The notes below the pieces were generated by a model. That model saw nothing but the letters and a program-made list of their open reading frames with translations, had not been told where the DNA came from and made no database searches. A program made the position numbers and the translations under genes. A DNA stretch of 53,965 nucleotides from Clostridiales bacterium (GTDB taxonomy: Bacteria; Bacillota; Clostridia; Lachnospirales; Lachnospiraceae): NCBI GenBank assembly GCA_003343625.1, contig QAKV01000004.1, forward strand, positions 1-53,965, read 5' to 3'. The stretch's first letter is position 1. Each line of letters starts with the position of its first letter. Shown piece after piece: positions 3,638 to 51,958 of this stretch.

Positions 3638-4962
3638 TCAGACTTCTCCCTCAGCTCGATATCCAGCACCGTGTCCACGCTGTCTGGCAGCGGCCAGGTG
3701 AATACCGGATTCTCCCCCCAGTTGACGAAGGGGATGTGAGGGAACAACACCGTGTTCCAGGCTTCTCCCCGGTTCACCTGGCTGCCGTCGGACAGCATCG
3801 TGATCCGACGGATCCGGTCAGGGGAGATCCCGTACAGCGGCAGCGCGCCAAGCGGTTCTTCATATACATGGGCGTAAACGTGATTGCCCTTCTGGGTATA
3901 GCGTCCCCACTCCGGCTTTGGAAATTCGCTGATCCCGCAGCCGTAAATGCTGTCCTTGTTCTTCTTCATCCAAGCCCCGATTTCCCGAAGCCTCTTCACG
4001 CTCTCCTCCGGAAAGTTTCCCTTCGCGTCCGGGCCCACGTTGAGGATCATGTTGCCGCCCTTGCTGACGCACTCCACCAGCTTGCGGACGAGCATGGAGG
4101 AGGACTTCCAGGTGTGGTCGAAGCTGCAGTACCCCCAATGGTTGTTCATGGTGGCGCACAGCTCCCAGGGAATCGCCCGGCCTGCGTCATCGCGCACTCC
4201 TTCCGGCGGGATGATCTGTTCCGGGCTGGCGAAATCGCCGCTGCACACATAGGGCTCGTCCCAGGCGATGCTGCCGTTGTTTTCCCCCGAGCCTTCCAGA
4301 CGGTTGTCCAGCACGATATCCGGTTGATAAGCCCTGACCATATCCACCAGTTCTTCGCCCTTCCAGGTATCGCCGTTCATATGCTCATAGGAAAAATCAA
4401 ACCACATGATGTCAAGCTTTCCGTACCCGGTCACCAGCTCCTTCACCTGGCCGTGCATATATTCCAGATAACGGTCGAAATCGATTTTTTCCTCCGCATA
4501 GGCCGGGTTTCCCCTCATGGGATGATTGCGATCCGAAAATTTGGGGAAGTCCGGGTGGTGCCAGTCCAGCAGAGAATAGTACAAGCCCACCTTCAGCCCC
4601 TCCGCCCGGAAAGCGTCCAGAAATTCCCGCACCAGATCCCTTCCCGCCTTCGTGTTCGTGGACTTGTAATCCGTCAGCGCCGAATCGAACAGGCAGAAGC
4701 CATCGTGATGTTTGGCGGTCAGCACCGCATAGCGCATCCCCGCTTCCTTCGCCAGCCGGGCCCAGGTTTTGGGATCGTAGTCCACCGGATCGAACTGTTC
4801 GAAGTAAGGGCGGTATTCATCCACCGTCATTCGCCGATCCGACATCATCCATTCCCCGGCCGCAGGAATGGCGTACAATCCCCAGTGAATGAACAGACCG
4901 AAGCGGTCGTTTCGAAACCACTCCGTCCTTCTGAAAATATCCTCTTTTTTCTGTGTCCTCAC
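3634..4962 (-). CDS. Alpha-L-fucosidase, GH29
   Basis: 442 residues from a GTG start at 4962, chosen because GAGAGGAGG lies just upstream. The same frame is open to 5502, but that part overlaps the AraC gene out of frame. Family marks: WFRNDRFGLFIHWGLYAIPAAGEW near the N terminus, AVLTAKHHDGFCLFDS, and KLDIMWFDFSYEH near residue 186, whose Asp is the expected nucleophile. GH29 enzymes remove alpha-linked L-fucose with retention of configuration. There is no signal peptide, so it should act in the cytoplasm on imported oligosaccharides. It lies 38 nt behind the AraC regulator and is coupled by ATGA to the downstream membrane protein. Specificity (alpha-1,2/3/4 or core 1,6) cannot be read here. 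Confidence 0.93.
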   Translation of the reverse strand: MRTQKKEDIFRRTEWFRNDRFGLFIHWGLYAIPAAGEWMMSDRRMTVDEYRPYFEQFDPVDYDPKTWARLAKEAGMRYAVLTAKHHDGFCLFDSALTDYKSTNTKAGRDLVREFLDAFRAEGLKVGLYYSLLDWHHPDFPKFSDRNHPMRGNPAYAEEKIDFDRYLEYMHGQVKELVTGYGKLDIMWFDFSYEHMNGDTWKGEELVDMVRAYQPDIVLDNRLEGSGENNGSIAWDEPYVCSGDFASPEQIIPPEGVRDDAGRAIPWELCATMNNHWGYCSFDHTWKSSSMLVRKLVECVSKGGNMILNVGPDAKGNFPEESVKRLREIGAWMKKNKDSIYGCGISEFPKPEWGRYTQKGNHVYAHVYEEPLGALPLYGISPDRIRRITMLSDGSQVNRGEAWNTVLFPHIPFVNWGENPVFTWPLPDSVDTVLDIELREKSE

Positions 4963-5000
4963 AGATATATCCTCCTCTCTTTTTCCTCCCGCGCAGGCCG

Positions 5001-5921
5001 CTACATGCGCCCTTCCGCCGCTTTCCGGTATTCCCGGGGCGTGGTGCCGTACTGCCTGCGAAACTGCCGGTTGAAATAGGAAATGTTGCGAAAACCGTTC
5101 TCCAGGGCCGCCTCGGTCACCGGCCTGTCCGTCTGTACCAGGGTTCTGGCCGCCCTGGAAAGGCGATAGTGGTTGACGTATTCTATGCAGGTCATCCCGG
5201 CGAAGCGCTTGAAAAAGCTCATGAAATACGTCTCGCTGAAGTGGCACAGATCCGCCAGCTGTCCGATGGTGAGCGCCTCCGCATAGTGGCTGCGAATGTA
5301 TGTCAGCACCTGCTTCATCTTCTCCTCCGCTGCGGAGTCCTCCTGCGCGTTCTCGTTTTTGACCACGTAACCATGCTGGTAGAGAAGGCGGAAAAGACGG
5401 AACAGCAGCTCCTTGCGATAAATCTCTTCCCCCGTCTCCTCGGCTCTCCGTGCCCCGGCCGCATCTTTGGGCTGCACGCAATGCAGGAGTTCCCGCATGC
5501 ACGCCGTCAGTTCCTCATAGCCCGGCTGGCCGCCGCGCACCACCGGAACGAACCGGTATTTGCCGTTCTGCAGGGGACTGATATAGCGGATGGTACAGGC
5601 GTCCGGCGTCTGGTATCCCAACATGTCCAGATGGAATACCAGGCTCTCCGAAATCATCTTCCGCCCCGGCACCGCGTGGGCCGCATGGAGGATGTGGGGA
5701 GCGATCAGGAGCAGATCCCCTTTCCGCACCCGGAAGGATTCAAAATTGATATCATAATCGATCTCCCCTTCCTCAATCCATCCGATCTCCGCCTCCTCGT
5801 GCCAGTGCAGGGACAGATCCTGGTAAGTATTCGGCACGATACATCGATAGCGGCGAATGGGCATCAGCACATCCCCGTGATCCGCCCTCTCCTTAAAATC
5901 GGAAATCTTCCTCTCCTCCAT
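5001..5921 (-). CDS. AraC-family transcriptional regulator (cupin plus HTH)
   Basis: 306 residues from the ATG at 5921, preceded by AAGGAAG. A further in-frame ATG at 5972 lies inside the -10 box (5971-5976), so it cannot be the start. The N-terminal half is an AraC-type sugar-sensing cupin (LHWHEEAEIGWIEEGEIDYDI, VRKGDLLLIAPHILHAAH). The last 100 residues form the double HTH (LTIGQLADLCHFSETYFMSFFKRFAGMTCIEYVNHYRLSRA..., ENGFRNISYFNRQFRRQYGTTPREYRK). It is first in the operon with GH29 and divergent from GH13, so it probably responds to an imported sugar and controls one or both units. Confidence 0.93.
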   Translation of the reverse strand: MEERKISDFKERADHGDVLMPIRRYRCIVPNTYQDLSLHWHEEAEIGWIEEGEIDYDINFESFRVRKGDLLLIAPHILHAAHAVPGRKMISESLVFHLDMLGYQTPDACTIRYISPLQNGKYRFVPVVRGGQPGYEELTACMRELLHCVQPKDAAGARRAEETGEEIYRKELLFRLFRLLYQHGYVVKNENAQEDSAAEEKMKQVLTYIRSHYAEALTIGQLADLCHFSETYFMSFFKRFAGMTCIEYVNHYRLSRAARTLVQTDRPVTEAALENGFRNISYFNRQFRRQYGTTPREYRKAAEGRM

Positions 5922-46693: not shown

Positions 46694-46743
46694 AATTTAT
46701 GACCGGCGTGAAGATTTTCCTCGTCAGAAAGGAGCTTTTCCTC

Positions 46744-47406
46744 ATGTATCAAAGATTTCACACCGCGCTGACAGCCGTCTGCCTGAGCCTTCTGCTGGCG
46801 GGCTGTTCCGCCTCCGAACCGCCCCTGACGCAGACGATCGCCTCCGATCAGAAGTTGATGGCTGCGGGCGCCAACCGCACTTCCATCCGGACGGACGGTT
46901 CCGGCGCCGAAACGCAAGCCGTTCCGACAGGATCCGGAGAGCCCTCTGTGGACGCATCCTATCTGGACGCCGGGCAGGCCAAAGCCACCGCCCTCGAACA
47001 TGCCGGCATTTCCGAAGAGAATGCCATTCTCCCCAAAGTCCGGCAGGATTACGATGACGGACGCCTCGTCTATGAAGTCACGTTTTCCGCGAACGGGCAG
47101 GAATACGAATACGAAATCGATGCCTCTTCCGGCGAAATCCTGCAATATGGAATCGAATCCGACCGGGATGACTTCCCCTTCCCTTCTTCCATCCCGGACG
47201 GCGCCGCGCTCTCCGAAGAGCGGGCCCGGCAGATCGCCCTGGACCTGGTTCCGGGCGCCGGCGATAACAACATCCGCATCGGAACCGATTACGATGACGG
47301 AAGGATGATTTATGAAGGAAAAATCGTCTATCAGGGGATGGAATACGAATTCGAAATCGATGCTTCCGACGGCACCGTTCTCGAATGGGATGCCGAACCT
47401 CAGTGA
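46744..47406 (+). CDS. PepSY-domain lipoprotein
   Basis: 220 residues from the ATG at 46744 (AAGGAG ahead; the in-frame ATG at 46699 lacks one). The signal peptide ends in LLAGC with lipid-acceptor Cys21. Two PepSY-like repeats follow: DAGQAKATALEHAGISEENA...YDDGRLVYEVTFSANGQEYEYEIDASSGEIL, and SEERARQIALDLVPGAG...YDDGRMIYEGKIVYQGMEYEFEIDASDGTVLEW. PepSY domains are small inhibitory or binding modules at the cell surface. It stands 50 nt behind the sensor kinase, so it is probably the regulated output or a modulator of that kinase. Confidence 0.88.
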   Translation: MYQRFHTALTAVCLSLLLAGCSASEPPLTQTIASDQKLMAAGANRTSIRTDGSGAETQAVPTGSGEPSVDASYLDAGQAKATALEHAGISEENAILPKVRQDYDDGRLVYEVTFSANGQEYEYEIDASSGEILQYGIESDRDDFPFPSSIPDGAALSEERARQIALDLVPGAGDNNIRIGTDYDDGRMIYEGKIVYQGMEYEFEIDASDGTVLEWDAEPQ

Positions 47407-47465: not shown

Positions 47466-50327
47466 TCAGCCCATCCCGCTTCCGGATCCCCCGCCATCCC
47501 CGGAGTCGTTTCCCAGCCGCATCCCTTCGGCCCATCGAACCAAATTCTCATCCGCGTGATCGAACAGATAGTTGCGATCGGATTCCCGTTTCTTTTCCCA
47601 GGCCTCCCTCACTTGCTGCCTGGTCTGCTCCACCTCCTCCATGAGCTCTCTTGCGGACATTCTCCGCGCCCCCTGCCCGTAAATGATCACCTGTTCCAGG
47701 GCGTCGGAAGTGGCCACGGTGACCTGATTCTTCCTGCCGATTTTATGTACGGTCTTTTCGATGTATTGATCCGCAGTCTCGGCTTCTTTCGTGTAAACCA
47801 CATGGATATTGTGATATTTCTGCACGCTTCCCTGTCCGCCTTCCACCCGGTAGGCATCGAAGACCAGGATAACGGTGCACCGATGGAACCCCTGATAATC
47901 GCAGAGAACATCCATCAGCCGCCCTCTGGCGCTCTCGATATTCTCCCGGGCCAGCTGCCGCAGGTCGTCCCAGGCGAAAATGATATTATATCCGTCCACC
48001 AGAAGATAGCGTTCCGCCTGCGAATCCCGCCGGTCCGGATCCGGTTTTCGCCCCTCCCCGACGGTTCGCGCCGAGGGTTCCCGCCTCGCGGGCCCGTCCG
48101 CAACCCGCTTCCTGGCGTAGCCTCTTGTTTCCCTCTTCCCGTTTCCGGACGGATAGATCCGGGCGAAAATCTCGTCTATCTCTTCCTGGGTGACAATCCT
48201 TTCCGCGGGCTCCTTCCGGAGGGATATCGGCTTCAGGCCCACGGCCTCCTGCCCTTCTTCCCGCTTTTCTTCCGGCAAATAGCATTTTTCCAGATGCATA
48301 TAGTCTTCCACCTGATCCCAGGGCACCACAAATCCCGCCCCATGGGCGCAGAACACGGAGCCGCAGGGGTTTTCCGTATCCCCGTCCGGGTCGTAGCCCG
48401 CCGCTTCCACCACTGCCCGGGCGTTGTGACAGGGCTCGTATCCTTTCAGGACGCACATCAGCCTGCCGCGTCCTCTGGTATAGGCGGTGACTTCCCTCTG
48501 ATAGTTGCCCATTTCCGAAACCGGAACGGTTCCCACGAGCACGGCGTACTCCCCCGCGATTTCAGGCGGATCGAAGTGGCCCTGCATCCTCTGGATGTCG
48601 CTCATGGCCTTGCCCACATACTCTGCCGGGACTTCCAGAGAAAAGGCGTAGACGGGTTCCAGCAGAACGCTTTCGGCCCTGCGCAGCCCCTGCCGCAGCG
48701 CCCGATAAGTGGCCTGCCTGAAATCCCCTCCTTCGGTATGCTTCAGATGAGCCCTTCCGGTCAGCAACGTAATCTTCATATCCGTGATTTCCGCCCCGAT
48801 GAGCACGCCTTTGTGGCGCTTCTCTTCCAGATGGGTCAGCACGAGGCGCTGCCAGTTTGCGTCCAGTACGTCCTCGCTGCAGGCCGTCGCAAAGGACAGC
48901 CCCGTTCCCCGTTCCGCAGGCTCCAGCAGCAGATGCACCTCCGCATAGTGCCGCAGGGGTTCAAAATGCCCCACGCCTTCCACCGGCGCCGCGATTGTCT
49001 CCCGGTAGACGATGCTGCCGTTTTCAAAAGAAACCGATATGCCAAACCGCCGCCGGATCTGATCTTTCAGAATTTCGGTCTGGACATCCCCCATCACGCG
49101 GGCCTGAATCTCCCCCGTGGCTTCCTCCCAGCAAATGGACAGCTCCGGTTCTTCCTCTTCCAGCTGCTTCAGTTTCAGATACATGGAATGCACATCGCAG
49201 TCGTCCGGAAGGCCGATCCGATAGGTCAGCACCGGCTCCAGCAGAGGCAGAACGGGTTCCGTCTCCCGCCCGAGTCCCTGCCCGGCAAACGTCTTCGTCA
49301 GACCTGTCACCGCGCACACCGTCCCCGCCGGGACTTCCGAAACCGCCTGAAACGAATCCCCGGAATAAAGCCGCAGCTGATCCGCTTTTTCTTCCCACAT
49401 CCCCTCCCGGGGCTGCTGCGTCCCCTCCTGCCGGTCGCTCAGCGGCATCTTCACGTACAGCCGGCCTCCCGTAACCTTCAGATAAGTCAGCCGATTGCCC
49501 GCGGGATCTCTGGAAATCTTATACACCCTGGCGCCGAATTGCCCGGGATAGCGTTTCTCCTTCATCCCTTCTTCCATCAGGGAAAGCAGGCCGATCACGC
49601 CGAAGCCTTTGAGCGCCGAACCGAAACAGCAGGGAAATACCCTGCGCTGCGCGATCAGTTCCGCGATATCTTCCGGCGTGATAGCTTCTCCTTCCAGATA
49701 CCTCTCCAGAAGGGTTTCATCGCACATCGCCAGATCCTCCCACAGGGAAGCCGGAGCCGTACAGCGCCAGTCCCCCTTCTCCCTGCCCTTTTCATACCCG
49801 CCGGATACCGCCTCGGACCCGGCTTCCTCCCTCTCTCCGCTGCAAAAACGGACGCATCGGCCATCCAGCCGCTTCTGCAGCTGCTCCATTAAAAGATCCT
49901 CCCGGACGCCGTCCTGATCCATCTTGTTGATGAACAAAAAGACCGGAATCCCGTATCGTTTCAGCAACCGCCACAACGTCTCCACATGGCCCTGCACTCC
50001 ATCCGCGCCGCTGATGACCAGCACCGCATAGTCCAGCACCTGCAGCGTCCGCTCCATCTCCGCGGAAAAATCCACATGGCCCGGCGTGTCCAGAAGCGCC
50101 ACGTCGAACTCCCCCAGAGAGAACCGGGCCTCTTTGGAGAAAATCGTAATTCCCCTTGCCCGTTCCATGTCGTCCGTGTCCAGAAAAGCGTCCTGATGAT
50201 CCACTCTGCCCAGTTTGCGCACGCTGCCCGTCAGAAACAGGATCCGTTCCGCCAGCGTGGTCTTCCCCGCGTCCACATGGGCCAGCAGGCCCACGCATAT
50301 ATGTTTCTTTTCAGACGTATTTTCCAT
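47466..50327 (-). CDS. TetM/EF-G-like ribosome GTPase fused to a C-terminal NYN (YacP/Rae1-like) nuclease domain
   Basis: 953 residues, about 310 longer than TetM. Residues 1-150 form a translational GTPase domain: G1 AHVDAGKT (16-23), G2 RGIT (58-61), G3 DTPGH (80-84), G4 NKMD (134-137). EF-G-like domains II-V continue to about residue 700 (VKMPLSDRQE..., RATYRALRQGLRRAESVLLEPVYAFSLEVPAEYVGKAMSDIQRM...). A charged linker follows. From residue 773, RYLLVDGYNIIFAWDDL begins a NYN domain with acidic residues Asp778, Asp853 (TADQYIE) and Asp875 (ATSDALEQ) expected to bind metal. The family names are TetM/TetP-type protection factors and the YacP/Rae1 A-site mRNA endonuclease. The protein probably enters the A site and may cleave mRNA there (inference). 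The ribosome site lies in one arm of a palindrome (50334-50385). Confidence 0.88.
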   Translation of the reverse strand: MENTSEKKHICVGLLAHVDAGKTTLAERILFLTGSVRKLGRVDHQDAFLDTDDMERARGITIFSKEARFSLGEFDVALLDTPGHVDFSAEMERTLQVLDYAVLVISGADGVQGHVETLWRLLKRYGIPVFLFINKMDQDGVREDLLMEQLQKRLDGRCVRFCSGEREEAGSEAVSGGYEKGREKGDWRCTAPASLWEDLAMCDETLLERYLEGEAITPEDIAELIAQRRVFPCCFGSALKGFGVIGLLSLMEEGMKEKRYPGQFGARVYKISRDPAGNRLTYLKVTGGRLYVKMPLSDRQEGTQQPREGMWEEKADQLRLYSGDSFQAVSEVPAGTVCAVTGLTKTFAGQGLGRETEPVLPLLEPVLTYRIGLPDDCDVHSMYLKLKQLEEEEPELSICWEEATGEIQARVMGDVQTEILKDQIRRRFGISVSFENGSIVYRETIAAPVEGVGHFEPLRHYAEVHLLLEPAERGTGLSFATACSEDVLDANWQRLVLTHLEEKRHKGVLIGAEITDMKITLLTGRAHLKHTEGGDFRQATYRALRQGLRRAESVLLEPVYAFSLEVPAEYVGKAMSDIQRMQGHFDPPEIAGEYAVLVGTVPVSEMGNYQREVTAYTRGRGRLMCVLKGYEPCHNARAVVEAAGYDPDGDTENPCGSVFCAHGAGFVVPWDQVEDYMHLEKCYLPEEKREEGQEAVGLKPISLRKEPAERIVTQEEIDEIFARIYPSGNGKRETRGYARKRVADGPARREPSARTVGEGRKPDPDRRDSQAERYLLVDGYNIIFAWDDLRQLARENIESARGRLMDVLCDYQGFHRCTVILVFDAYRVEGGQGSVQKYHNIHVVYTKEAETADQYIEKTVHKIGRKNQVTVATSDALEQVIIYGQGARRMSARELMEEVEQTRQQVREAWEKKRESDRNYLFDHADENLVRWAEGMRLGNDSGDGGGSGSGMG

Positions 50328-50333
50328 GAAAAT

Positions 50334-50385
50334 ACCCCTTTCTGTGCTATGATTACATACTCATAATCATAGCACAGAAAGGGGT
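50334..50385. promoter_or_regulatory. Perfect palindrome (22-bp arms, 8-nt centre) at the start of the GTPase-NYN gene
   Basis: Left arm 50334-50355 and right arm 50364-50385 are exact complements around CATACTCA. The GTPase-NYN ribosome site (AGAAAGGGGT on the minus strand, 50334-50343) is in the arm nearest the gene, 6 nt from the ATG. Each strand also carries TGCTATGAT, an extended -10 (minus -10 at 50366-50371; plus at 50348-50353). On the minus strand TCGACT stands 17 nt before it. It could be a symmetrical regulator site over divergent promoters, or an RNA hairpin hiding the ribosome site. Confidence 0.75.
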
Positions 50386-50405
50386 GTAAGTCGATAATTC
50401 ATAAA

Positions 50406-50552: not shown

Positions 50553-50578
50553 TTTTACACTGAGAAGAGGGAATGCAA

Positions 50579-51958
50579 ATGGAAAATTCGCAAAAAATCA
50601 CGCTGTTCGAAAATACGCCGGTGCCGGGCGCCGTGGCCAAACTGGCCGTTCCCACCGTCCTGAGCTCCCTGGTGATGGTGCTGTACAACATGGCGGACAC
50701 ATATTTCGTCGGGATGCTCAACGATCCGGTGCAGAATGCCGCCGTCACCCTGGCCGCCCCGGTTCTTTTGGCCTTCAATGCTGTCAACAACCTGTTCGGG
50801 GTGGGCAGCTCCAGCATGATGAGCCGCGCCATGGGCCGCAGGGATTACGACACCGTCTACCGAAGCTCCGCCTTCGGATTTTACTGCGCGATTCTCTCCG
50901 GCATCCTGTTTTCCCTTCTGTGCACTGTCTTTCAGGGGCCTCTGCTGGTACTTCTGGGATCCGATGCCCAGACGAAAGCCGCTACCGTCGGCTATCTGAA
51001 ATGGACGGTCTTCGCAGGGGCCACCCCTTCCATCTTAAACGTGGTCATGGCCTATCTCGTCCGTTCGGAAGGCGCAGCCCTGCATGCCAGCATCGGTACC
51101 ATGTGCGGCTGTGTGCTGAACATGATCCTGGATCCCGTTTTCATCCTGCCCTGGGGATTTCACATGGGCGCGGAAGGCGCGGGGCTGGCCACGTTCCTCT
51201 CCAACTGCGTGGCCTGCCTGTATTTTTTCGTCCTCCTGTTCGTCCGCCGCAAAACCACCTTTGTGTGCATTCGTCCCAAAATGTTCGGTTTCCGGCGCTC
51301 CATCGTGCTGGGCGTGTGCGGTGTGGGCATTCCTGCTTCCATCCAGAATCTGCTCAACGTCACGGGAATGACGATCCTGAACAACTTCACCTCCGTTTAC
51401 GGGCCGGACGCCGTGGCGGCCATGGGCATCACCCAGAAGATCAACATGGTTCCCATGAACATTTCCATGGGGCTCTCCCAGGGAATCATGCCCCTGATCA
51501 GCTACAACTATTCCTCCGGAAACGTCAGACGAATGAAATCCACCCTGCTGTTTTCGGTGAAGATCATGCTGGGATTCATCCTCACCGTCTCCGCCTTCTA
51601 TTTCCTGGCTTCCGGCTTCCTGACCGGACTGTTCATGCAAAACGAAGCCATCATCGGATACGGCAGCCAGTTTTTGCGGGGCTTTTGTCTGGGGCTGCCC
51701 TTTCTGGCCGTGGATTTCCTGGCCGTGGGCGTCTTCCAGGCTACCGGCATGGGACGGGAAGCGTTCCTGTTCGCCATCCTTCGCAAGATCGTGCTGGAAA
51801 TTCCGGCGCTTTACATCCTCAACCGGCTCTTCCCGCTGTACGGCCTGGCCTATGCCCAGCTCACCGCGGAGCTGATCCTGTCCGCCGCTGCGGTTTTGGT
51901 CCTGCGCCATCTGTTCCGAAAACTGGAAACGCGGGTTCTGCCGCCGGGCGGGCAGTGA
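50579..51958 (+). CDS. MATE-family efflux transporter (second)
   Basis: 459 residues from the ATG at 50579, which has AGAGGG at good spacing (an ATG at 50573 is too close to it). About 12 membrane segments. Family marks: VPTVLSSLVMVLYNMADTYFVGML, LAFNAVNNLFGVGSSSMMSRAMGRRDYD, YLVRSEGAALHASIGTMCGCVLNMILDPVFI, VGIPASIQNLLNVTGMTILNNFTSVYG, and MGLSQGIMPLISYNYSSGN. It resembles the MepA/NorM-like multidrug exporters of Firmicutes. It is divergent from the GTPase-NYN gene across the palindrome and attenuator-like region, so joint regulation under translation or antibiotic stress is worth considering. Confidence 0.92.
   Translation: MENSQKITLFENTPVPGAVAKLAVPTVLSSLVMVLYNMADTYFVGMLNDPVQNAAVTLAAPVLLAFNAVNNLFGVGSSSMMSRAMGRRDYDTVYRSSAFGFYCAILSGILFSLLCTVFQGPLLVLLGSDAQTKAATVGYLKWTVFAGATPSILNVVMAYLVRSEGAALHASIGTMCGCVLNMILDPVFILPWGFHMGAEGAGLATFLSNCVACLYFFVLLFVRRKTTFVCIRPKMFGFRRSIVLGVCGVGIPASIQNLLNVTGMTILNNFTSVYGPDAVAAMGITQKINMVPMNISMGLSQGIMPLISYNYSSGNVRRMKSTLLFSVKIMLGFILTVSAFYFLASGFLTGLFMQNEAIIGYGSQFLRGFCLGLPFLAVDFLAVGVFQATGMGREAFLFAILRKIVLEIPALYILNRLFPLYGLAYAQLTAELILSAAAVLVLRHLFRKLETRVLPPGGQ

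Follow-up and report, generated by a model that had tools for sequence, protein, structure and literature searches.

A single gene in a 53,965-nucleotide stretch of DNA from a Clostridiales bacterium (contig QAKV01000004.1 of assembly GCA_003343625.1; hereafter the window) encodes a translational guanosine triphosphatase (GTPase) joined through a long linker to an NYN_YacP domain, a nuclease domain of the kind found in the Bacillus subtilis protein Rae1 (YacP). We think it somewhat probable that the product is a ribosome-targeted messenger RNA (mRNA) endonuclease, in which a Rae1-type NYN domain is tethered to its own A-site GTPase of the EF-G fold. The fusion architecture as such is already in print, as Atkinson 2015 described Tet proteins of ten clostridial species that acquired a YacP-like NYN ribonuclease domain and proposed for them a resistance mechanism with ribonuclease activity, ribosomal RNA (rRNA) included (PMC4342817). 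With its Tet-like GTPase and YacP-like NYN domain, the window protein has the same architecture and belongs to these Clostridiales Tet-NYN proteins. The useful additions to this prior art are the near-exclusivity with a stand-alone Rae1 and the non-TetM tip of domain IV; further additions are a probable GTPase subfamily that includes unfused members, a likely history of fusion followed by loss, and a conserved palindromic putative promoter in a subset of loci. The available parts of Atkinson 2015 make no mention of a replacement of Rae1, an unfused subfamily, tip motifs, a C-terminal extension or a promoter element. Beyond that paper, a full-text search covering few subscription papers gave, among the matches listed, no study recognisable as being on the fusion or its function. 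Berglund 2020 screened ribosomal protection genes, and the term NYN occurs nowhere in its main text as far as this was accessible (PMC7725328).

The fusion protein and its two halves

The original prediction of a full GTPase fused to an NYN domain within one open reading frame was borne out by the Pfam domain search (Table 1). GTP_EFTU, EFG_III, EFG_IV and EFG_C are found in this order and the G motifs are present and strongly conserved, which places the protein in the EF2/EF-G family of translational GTPases; His84 of the DTPGH motif is invariant in an alignment of 45 rows. In the predicted model, compared with EF-G structures, this half adopts the EF-G fold. The model of the other half has the fold of solved Rae1 (5mq8/5mq9), and the domain scores 184.9 bits for PF05991 against a gathering score of 24.6. 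The acidic residues that had been expected of a Rae1-type nuclease are in place: D778, D853 and D875, and with them N781, which we take to be the catalytic residues of nucleases of this type, sit in the same alignment columns in Rae1 and are identical in all 65 rows that cover both halves. Between the halves lies a linker, predicted to be disordered, whose length (residues 679-774) varies from 58 to 145 residues with a median of 89 across 65 rows. A conserved linker motif was rejected, as the search pattern matched just 27 of the 65 linkers.

According to the accessible text of two papers, the target of Rae1 is mRNA in the A site of the ribosome (PMC12320835; PMC6613710), and an efp mutant is suppressed when rae1 or the co-transcribed yacO is lost (PMC6613710). 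S1025 and bmrCD are among the known targets of Rae1. An NYN domain that processes rRNA or transfer RNA, in maturation or ribosome turnover, instead of cutting mRNA is very improbable, given that its closest characterised relative is this A-site mRNA endonuclease, to which it is about 43% identical across the domain.

Relatives are numerous. Of 7974 candidates scored in a protein search, the best 120, many of which are near copies, all have both GTP_EFTU and PF05991 among their precomputed domains. In a scan with one genome per species, 80 loci were found, made up of 71 at 44-80% identity and nine of EF-G type without NYN. By title the 71 belong to Lachnospiraceae, Clostridiales and other Bacillota, with Candidatus Eisenbergiella as the nearest named relative (80%). 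Aligned with the window they give 72 rows, of which 65 span both halves. Among the other seven, L053 and L051 end ahead of the NYN domain, L052, L056, L057 and L058 continue past the ends of their contigs, and L068 is truncated at its beginning. Domain IV is the best conserved part, with a mean identity to the query of 0.77 (residues 440-555); the value is 0.54-0.58 in the other domains, 0.44 over residues 640-720 and 0.16 over residues 720-772. Judged from these alignments, the key residues of both halves are conserved and the fusion has been retained over a deep clade of Clostridia.

That assembly or sequencing wrongly merged two genes, which would have undone the prediction, can practically be dismissed. 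The protein occurs at 100% identity on 29 contigs (P0001), in 99 of 293 genomes the frame that holds the NYN domain is 600 amino acids or longer, and 65 of the 72 aligned rows span both halves. Nothing in the window speaks for such an error; two of 104 relatives (G064 and G255) have their halves in different frames. In these two (L125 and L126) the frames overlap, probably as a result of local errors or decay of the copies, and frameshifting is another possibility.

Table 1. Features of the fusion gene and its upstream region; positions refer to the window, residues to the encoded protein
Feature	Position	Strand	Basis or remark
Whole fusion gene	47466..50327	-	953 codons, ATG start, single open reading frame
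G domain with G motifs, residues 7-253	49569..50309	-	Pfam GTP_EFTU 1.1e-48
Domain II, residues 265-348	49284..49535	-	Pfam EF-G_D2 weak, 0.00054, below cut-off; AF2/EF-G structural match
Domain III, residues 364-435	49023..49238	-	Pfam EFG_III 2.6e-7
Domain IV, residues 438-551	48675..49016	-	Pfam EFG_IV 7.6e-18
Domain IV motif GHFEPLRHYAEV, residues 453-464	48936..48971	-	Alignment
Domain IV motif KHTEGGDFR, residues 529-537	48717..48743	-	Alignment; stands where TetM has its loop
Domain V, residues 554-636	48420..48668	-	Pfam EFG_C 8.1e-20
C-terminal extension, residues 630-680	48288..48440	-	Alignment; block-mean predicted local distance difference test (pLDDT) 84-92
Linker, residues 681-772	48012..48287	-	pLDDT mostly <50; short predicted helix 714-724
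NYN_YacP (Rae1-type) nuclease domain, residues 775-931	47535..48005	-	Pfam 1.5e-54; Rae1 5mq8/5mq9
Asp778, catalytic-type	47994..47996	-	Identical in 65/65 rows
Asp853, catalytic-type	47769..47771	-	Identical in 65/65 rows
Asp875, catalytic-type	47703..47705	-	Identical in 65/65 rows
Inverted repeat, 56 base pairs, 24-base-pair arms, one mismatch	50332..50387	-	Overlaps putative promoter and ribosome-binding site
Putative promoter: TCGACT, 17 nucleotides, TATGAT, TG ahead of second hexamer	50366..50394	-	Consensus match only

The GTPase half resembles TetM and TetO in its EF-G fold, its domain order and the presence of some C-terminal extension past domain V. It differs from them in the domain-IV tip, the longer extension and the added nuclease, and it is 27% identical to one Tet(M). 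The likeness to TetM in the original prediction does not extend to identity, and a true Tet(M) is ruled out: the model for tetracycline ribosomal protection (NF012153, tet_protect) gives 408.6 bits against a cut-off of 775, and the tip reads AHLKHTEGGDF in the window as against YYSPVSTPADF in the Tet(M) row. A true EF-G, with which it shares domain order and fold, is likewise ruled out by the curated model (TIGR00484; 302.4 bits against 659.4). The tip motifs are strongly conserved: GHFEPLRHYAEV is common to fused and unfused members with small variations and is different in the Tet(M) row and the EF-G rows, and HTxGGDF is present in all 19 members shown, fused and unfused. Both kinds of member also have the C-terminal extension around SVFCxHGxGF, which is absent from the Tet(M) row and from two EF-G rows; its pattern is GYxPCHN...GYDP..D.ENP.GSVFCAHGAGF...W..V..YMH. 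Within the extension, C633, C660, H662 and H678 are candidates for a possible zinc site. As far as sequence comparison can tell, the GTPase forms a subfamily of its own which is unfused in other Clostridia.

These features bear on the suggestion of Atkinson 2015 that the protein gives intrinsic protection against antibiotics, with the GTPase driving tetracycline, or some other drug bound there, off the ribosome while the ribonuclease contributes to resistance. The loops at the tip of Tet proteins contact the drug site, as stated in the part of that paper available (PMC4342817), and it is this tip that has been swapped for a sequence ending in HTxGGDF. As the score for the protection model is also below its cut-off, and a spread over 104 of 293 Clostridia genomes is more in keeping with an old chromosomal gene than with an acquired one, we consider this role unlikely. 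An acquired resistance gene is unsupported by the plasmid records as well: 1380 contain a match, just two of them with at least 80% query coverage, and one of the two (H1) is a 518-kilobase Monoglobus record.

Fused and stand-alone nucleases in Clostridia

The survey of fusion frequency for which the original prediction had called was run on 293 Clostridia genomes, sampled from the class to which one of the fusion genomes belongs. A genome was called fused from the frame length together with a GTPase match in the genome, not from a gene-by-gene reading, and four matches below the cut-off were removed before counting (second matches in G140, G194 and G228; G281). PF05991 has a match in 192 genomes, over the cut-off in 191, which leaves 102 with none over it. 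The fusion is present in 104 genomes, 99 of which have a frame of at least 600 amino acids; the remaining five have contig edges or adjacent halves in different frames (G064, G176, G192, G205 and G255). Stand-alone NYN_YacP of at most 220 amino acids was counted in 87 genomes. Both forms occur over the cut-off in a single genome, G304 (L092 and L093), which was counted in both classes, while G306, with an NYN domain in a 342-amino-acid frame, was placed in neither. The odds ratio in Fisher's test is 0.012 (p 3e-19), calculated on genomes that are not independent of each other.

A closer view is provided by 20 fusion genomes chosen from the 71 loci. All 20 have exactly one PF05991 match, the fusion itself, and all have kept rlmB. 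A true EF-G is found over the cut-off in 19, with only a 614.8-bit relative in G019; because fusion genomes retain their ordinary EF-G, the fusion is an additional GTPase. Where the nuclease stands alone, its match lies 26-37 bases from that of rlmB in four of six genomes (G166, G183, G200 and G234; not in G137 and G229). Since genomes with a fused NYN_YacP hardly ever have a stand-alone one as well, it appears that in many Clostridia the fusion has replaced a separate, often rlmB-linked, Rae1.

The GTPase can also be followed on its own. With residues 430-700 as the query and E <=1e-50 as the threshold (G176, at a contig edge, was added, and weaker matches were counted as EF-G or other factors), an orthologue is found in 124 of the 293 genomes: the 104 fused ones and 20 in which it is unfused. 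Thirteen of these 20 also have a stand-alone YacP and seven have no NYN domain; a stand-alone YacP without the GTPase is present in 73 genomes.

In a FastTree tree of the GTPase, built from 83 of 119 rows after seven short rows had been dropped earlier and with long branches flagged, all 50 rows labelled fused form one group with the unfused L051, L053 and L089 at 97% local support; L056 and L058, the contigs of which end before the NYN domain, were labelled fused by default, and the placement of TetM and L123 is unsure. A tblastn search found no NYN domain in L053 and L089; L051 gave no more than a match at chance level, and the loss is ambiguous there as the contig ends 262 bases after the stop codon. 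The simplest history, which the tree fits, would be a single fusion, after which the nuclease was lost two or three times. The NYN tree, for which 44 of 94 rows were put through a short IQ-TREE search, is weakly supported, with 16 open forks, and neither tree proves a single fusion.

Two individual loci should be mentioned here. L089 (5983-7917), a protein encoded on a Ligilactobacillus salivarius plasmid, is an unfused member of the GTPase subfamily which adjoins rpsN and is annotated as tetracycline resistance. L117 of G229 (4802-5305) is a stand-alone NYN domain, 54% identical to that of the window and placed among the fused copies; G229 has an unfused GTPase elsewhere in the genome, and fission or transfer are possible origins of L117.

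These distributions also allow for a looser connection, in which the GTPase acts as a ribosome factor and the NYN domain as an ordinary Rae1, each independently, and fusion fixes only their stoichiometry and place. The 13 genomes with an unfused GTPase and a stand-alone YacP, the unfused members inside the fused clade and the long disordered linker of variable length all speak for it. We nevertheless rate it as decidedly unlikely, as the fusion has been kept over a deep clade of Clostridia with the key residues of both halves conserved, and a stand-alone copy is also present in just one of the 104 fusion genomes.

A possible mode of action at the ribosome

A ribosome-targeted mRNA endonuclease of this build could work as follows. 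The GTP-bound body, for which the fold and the G motifs speak, would dock at the factor site when the A site of the ribosome is vacant or blocked, and the conserved tip of domain IV may then probe the decoding centre. The NYN domain, which the long flexible linker ties to the C-terminal extension, would cut the mRNA at the A site or beside it, in the manner of Rae1 in B. subtilis. Hydrolysis of GTP would free the factor, and the truncated complex would pass to trans-translation. In bacteria that carry it, the fusion would thereby fill the niche of a separate Rae1. The difference from Rae1 is that the latter stands alone while the NYN domain of the window is tethered to a GTPase. RelE-family interferases have a different fold and no GTPase; the fusion would work in a similar way by cutting mRNA in the A site but is not a member of that family. 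The site of action of RelE-family interferases is stated in the accessible part of the literature to be the A site (PMC12320835).

Several points weigh against this reading. The linker is long, variable and predicted to be disordered, which gives no grounds for assuming a fixed geometry at the A site; its length makes reach unlikely to be limiting, and equally the fusion alone is not proof of coordinated action. The unfused members within the fused clade (L053, L089 and perhaps L051), together with the 20 of 124 GTPase-bearing genomes in which it is unfused, imply that the GTPase and nuclease activities are separable. One ancient fusion or replacement could yield much of the exclusivity, so that genome counts overstate the number of independent events, and some absences may be gaps, since completeness is not reported for the census genomes (at least 90% was requested). 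Finally, the 102 genomes without NYN_YacP over the cut-off and the seven with only an unfused GTPase indicate that neither of the two activities is generally required.

A more specific form of the endonuclease reading can be put forward tentatively, with somewhat less than even confidence. It would make the protein a single-polypeptide ribosome-rescue nuclease, present in about one third of the sampled Clostridia, in which a dedicated non-translocating GTPase of the EF-G family reads the stalled or drug-blocked A site by its own conserved domain-IV tip and GTP hydrolysis places the tethered Rae1 on the A-site codon. It would nearly always be the sole Rae1 of the genome and, in a subset of Lachnospiraceae, be expressed from a palindromic promoter.

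Upstream element, neighbouring genes and implications

In a subset of loci, as judged from sequence, the fusion gene is preceded by a conserved palindromic putative promoter (Table 1). With at most two substitutions, the left arm of the inverted repeat is found in 14 loci including the window, at -55 to -59; with at most five, it is found in 17 of 112 upstream stretches, one of which duplicates L018 and some others of which are near copies. None of the upstream stretches of 23 rows labelled unfused has it; L051, not so labelled, does. A longer pattern with at most three mismatches has eight sites in six of the 20 fusion genomes and none in the other 14, and a control pattern has none. Six of the eight sites precede the fusion and two precede genes upstream of it, namely a Schlafen AlbA_2 protein in G008 and a type I restriction cluster, then AlbA_2, in G009. 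As RNA, the inverted repeat has a strong predicted fold (-40.8 kcal/mol, z -9.7). Since a start at the predicted promoter would leave the left arm untranscribed, however, a DNA operator or insertion site is as likely as an RNA fold.

The gene blocks just upstream of the fusion in G008 and G009 are arranged as if inserted. AlbA_2 stands alone between two copies of the promoter-like element in G008 (L017, 4281-5901); in G009 (L138, 843-12805) two copies flank type I restriction genes, a 1501-amino-acid protein without a Pfam match and a Schlafen AlbA_2 gene. Over the 72 loci, many with short flanks, there is no general conserved neighbourhood that points to a partner; the neighbours include an ABC transporter (21 loci), GreA (11 loci) and a Schlafen AlbA_2 protein (five loci). 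In the window, the neighbours are a PepSY-domain protein (46702-47403) and a divergent MATE transporter (50573-51955), and no Rfam element reaches the gathering score.

As the original prediction had suspected, relatives are filed under tetracycline-resistance names, five of them (P0007, P0019, P0034, P0041 and P0059) as "TetM/TetW/TetO/TetS family...". Some proteins of gut Clostridia with this name belong to the GTPase subfamily described here, and because its tip loop and model score argue against a Tet name, resistome counts may be inflated. The joining of an A-site GTPase and a nuclease in one factor also bears on how bacterial A-site nucleases pick the paused ribosomes that they attack, and gives one testable answer: should cleavage be gated by the GTPase, decay of the Rae1 type can be a licensed, GTP-dependent rescue pathway.
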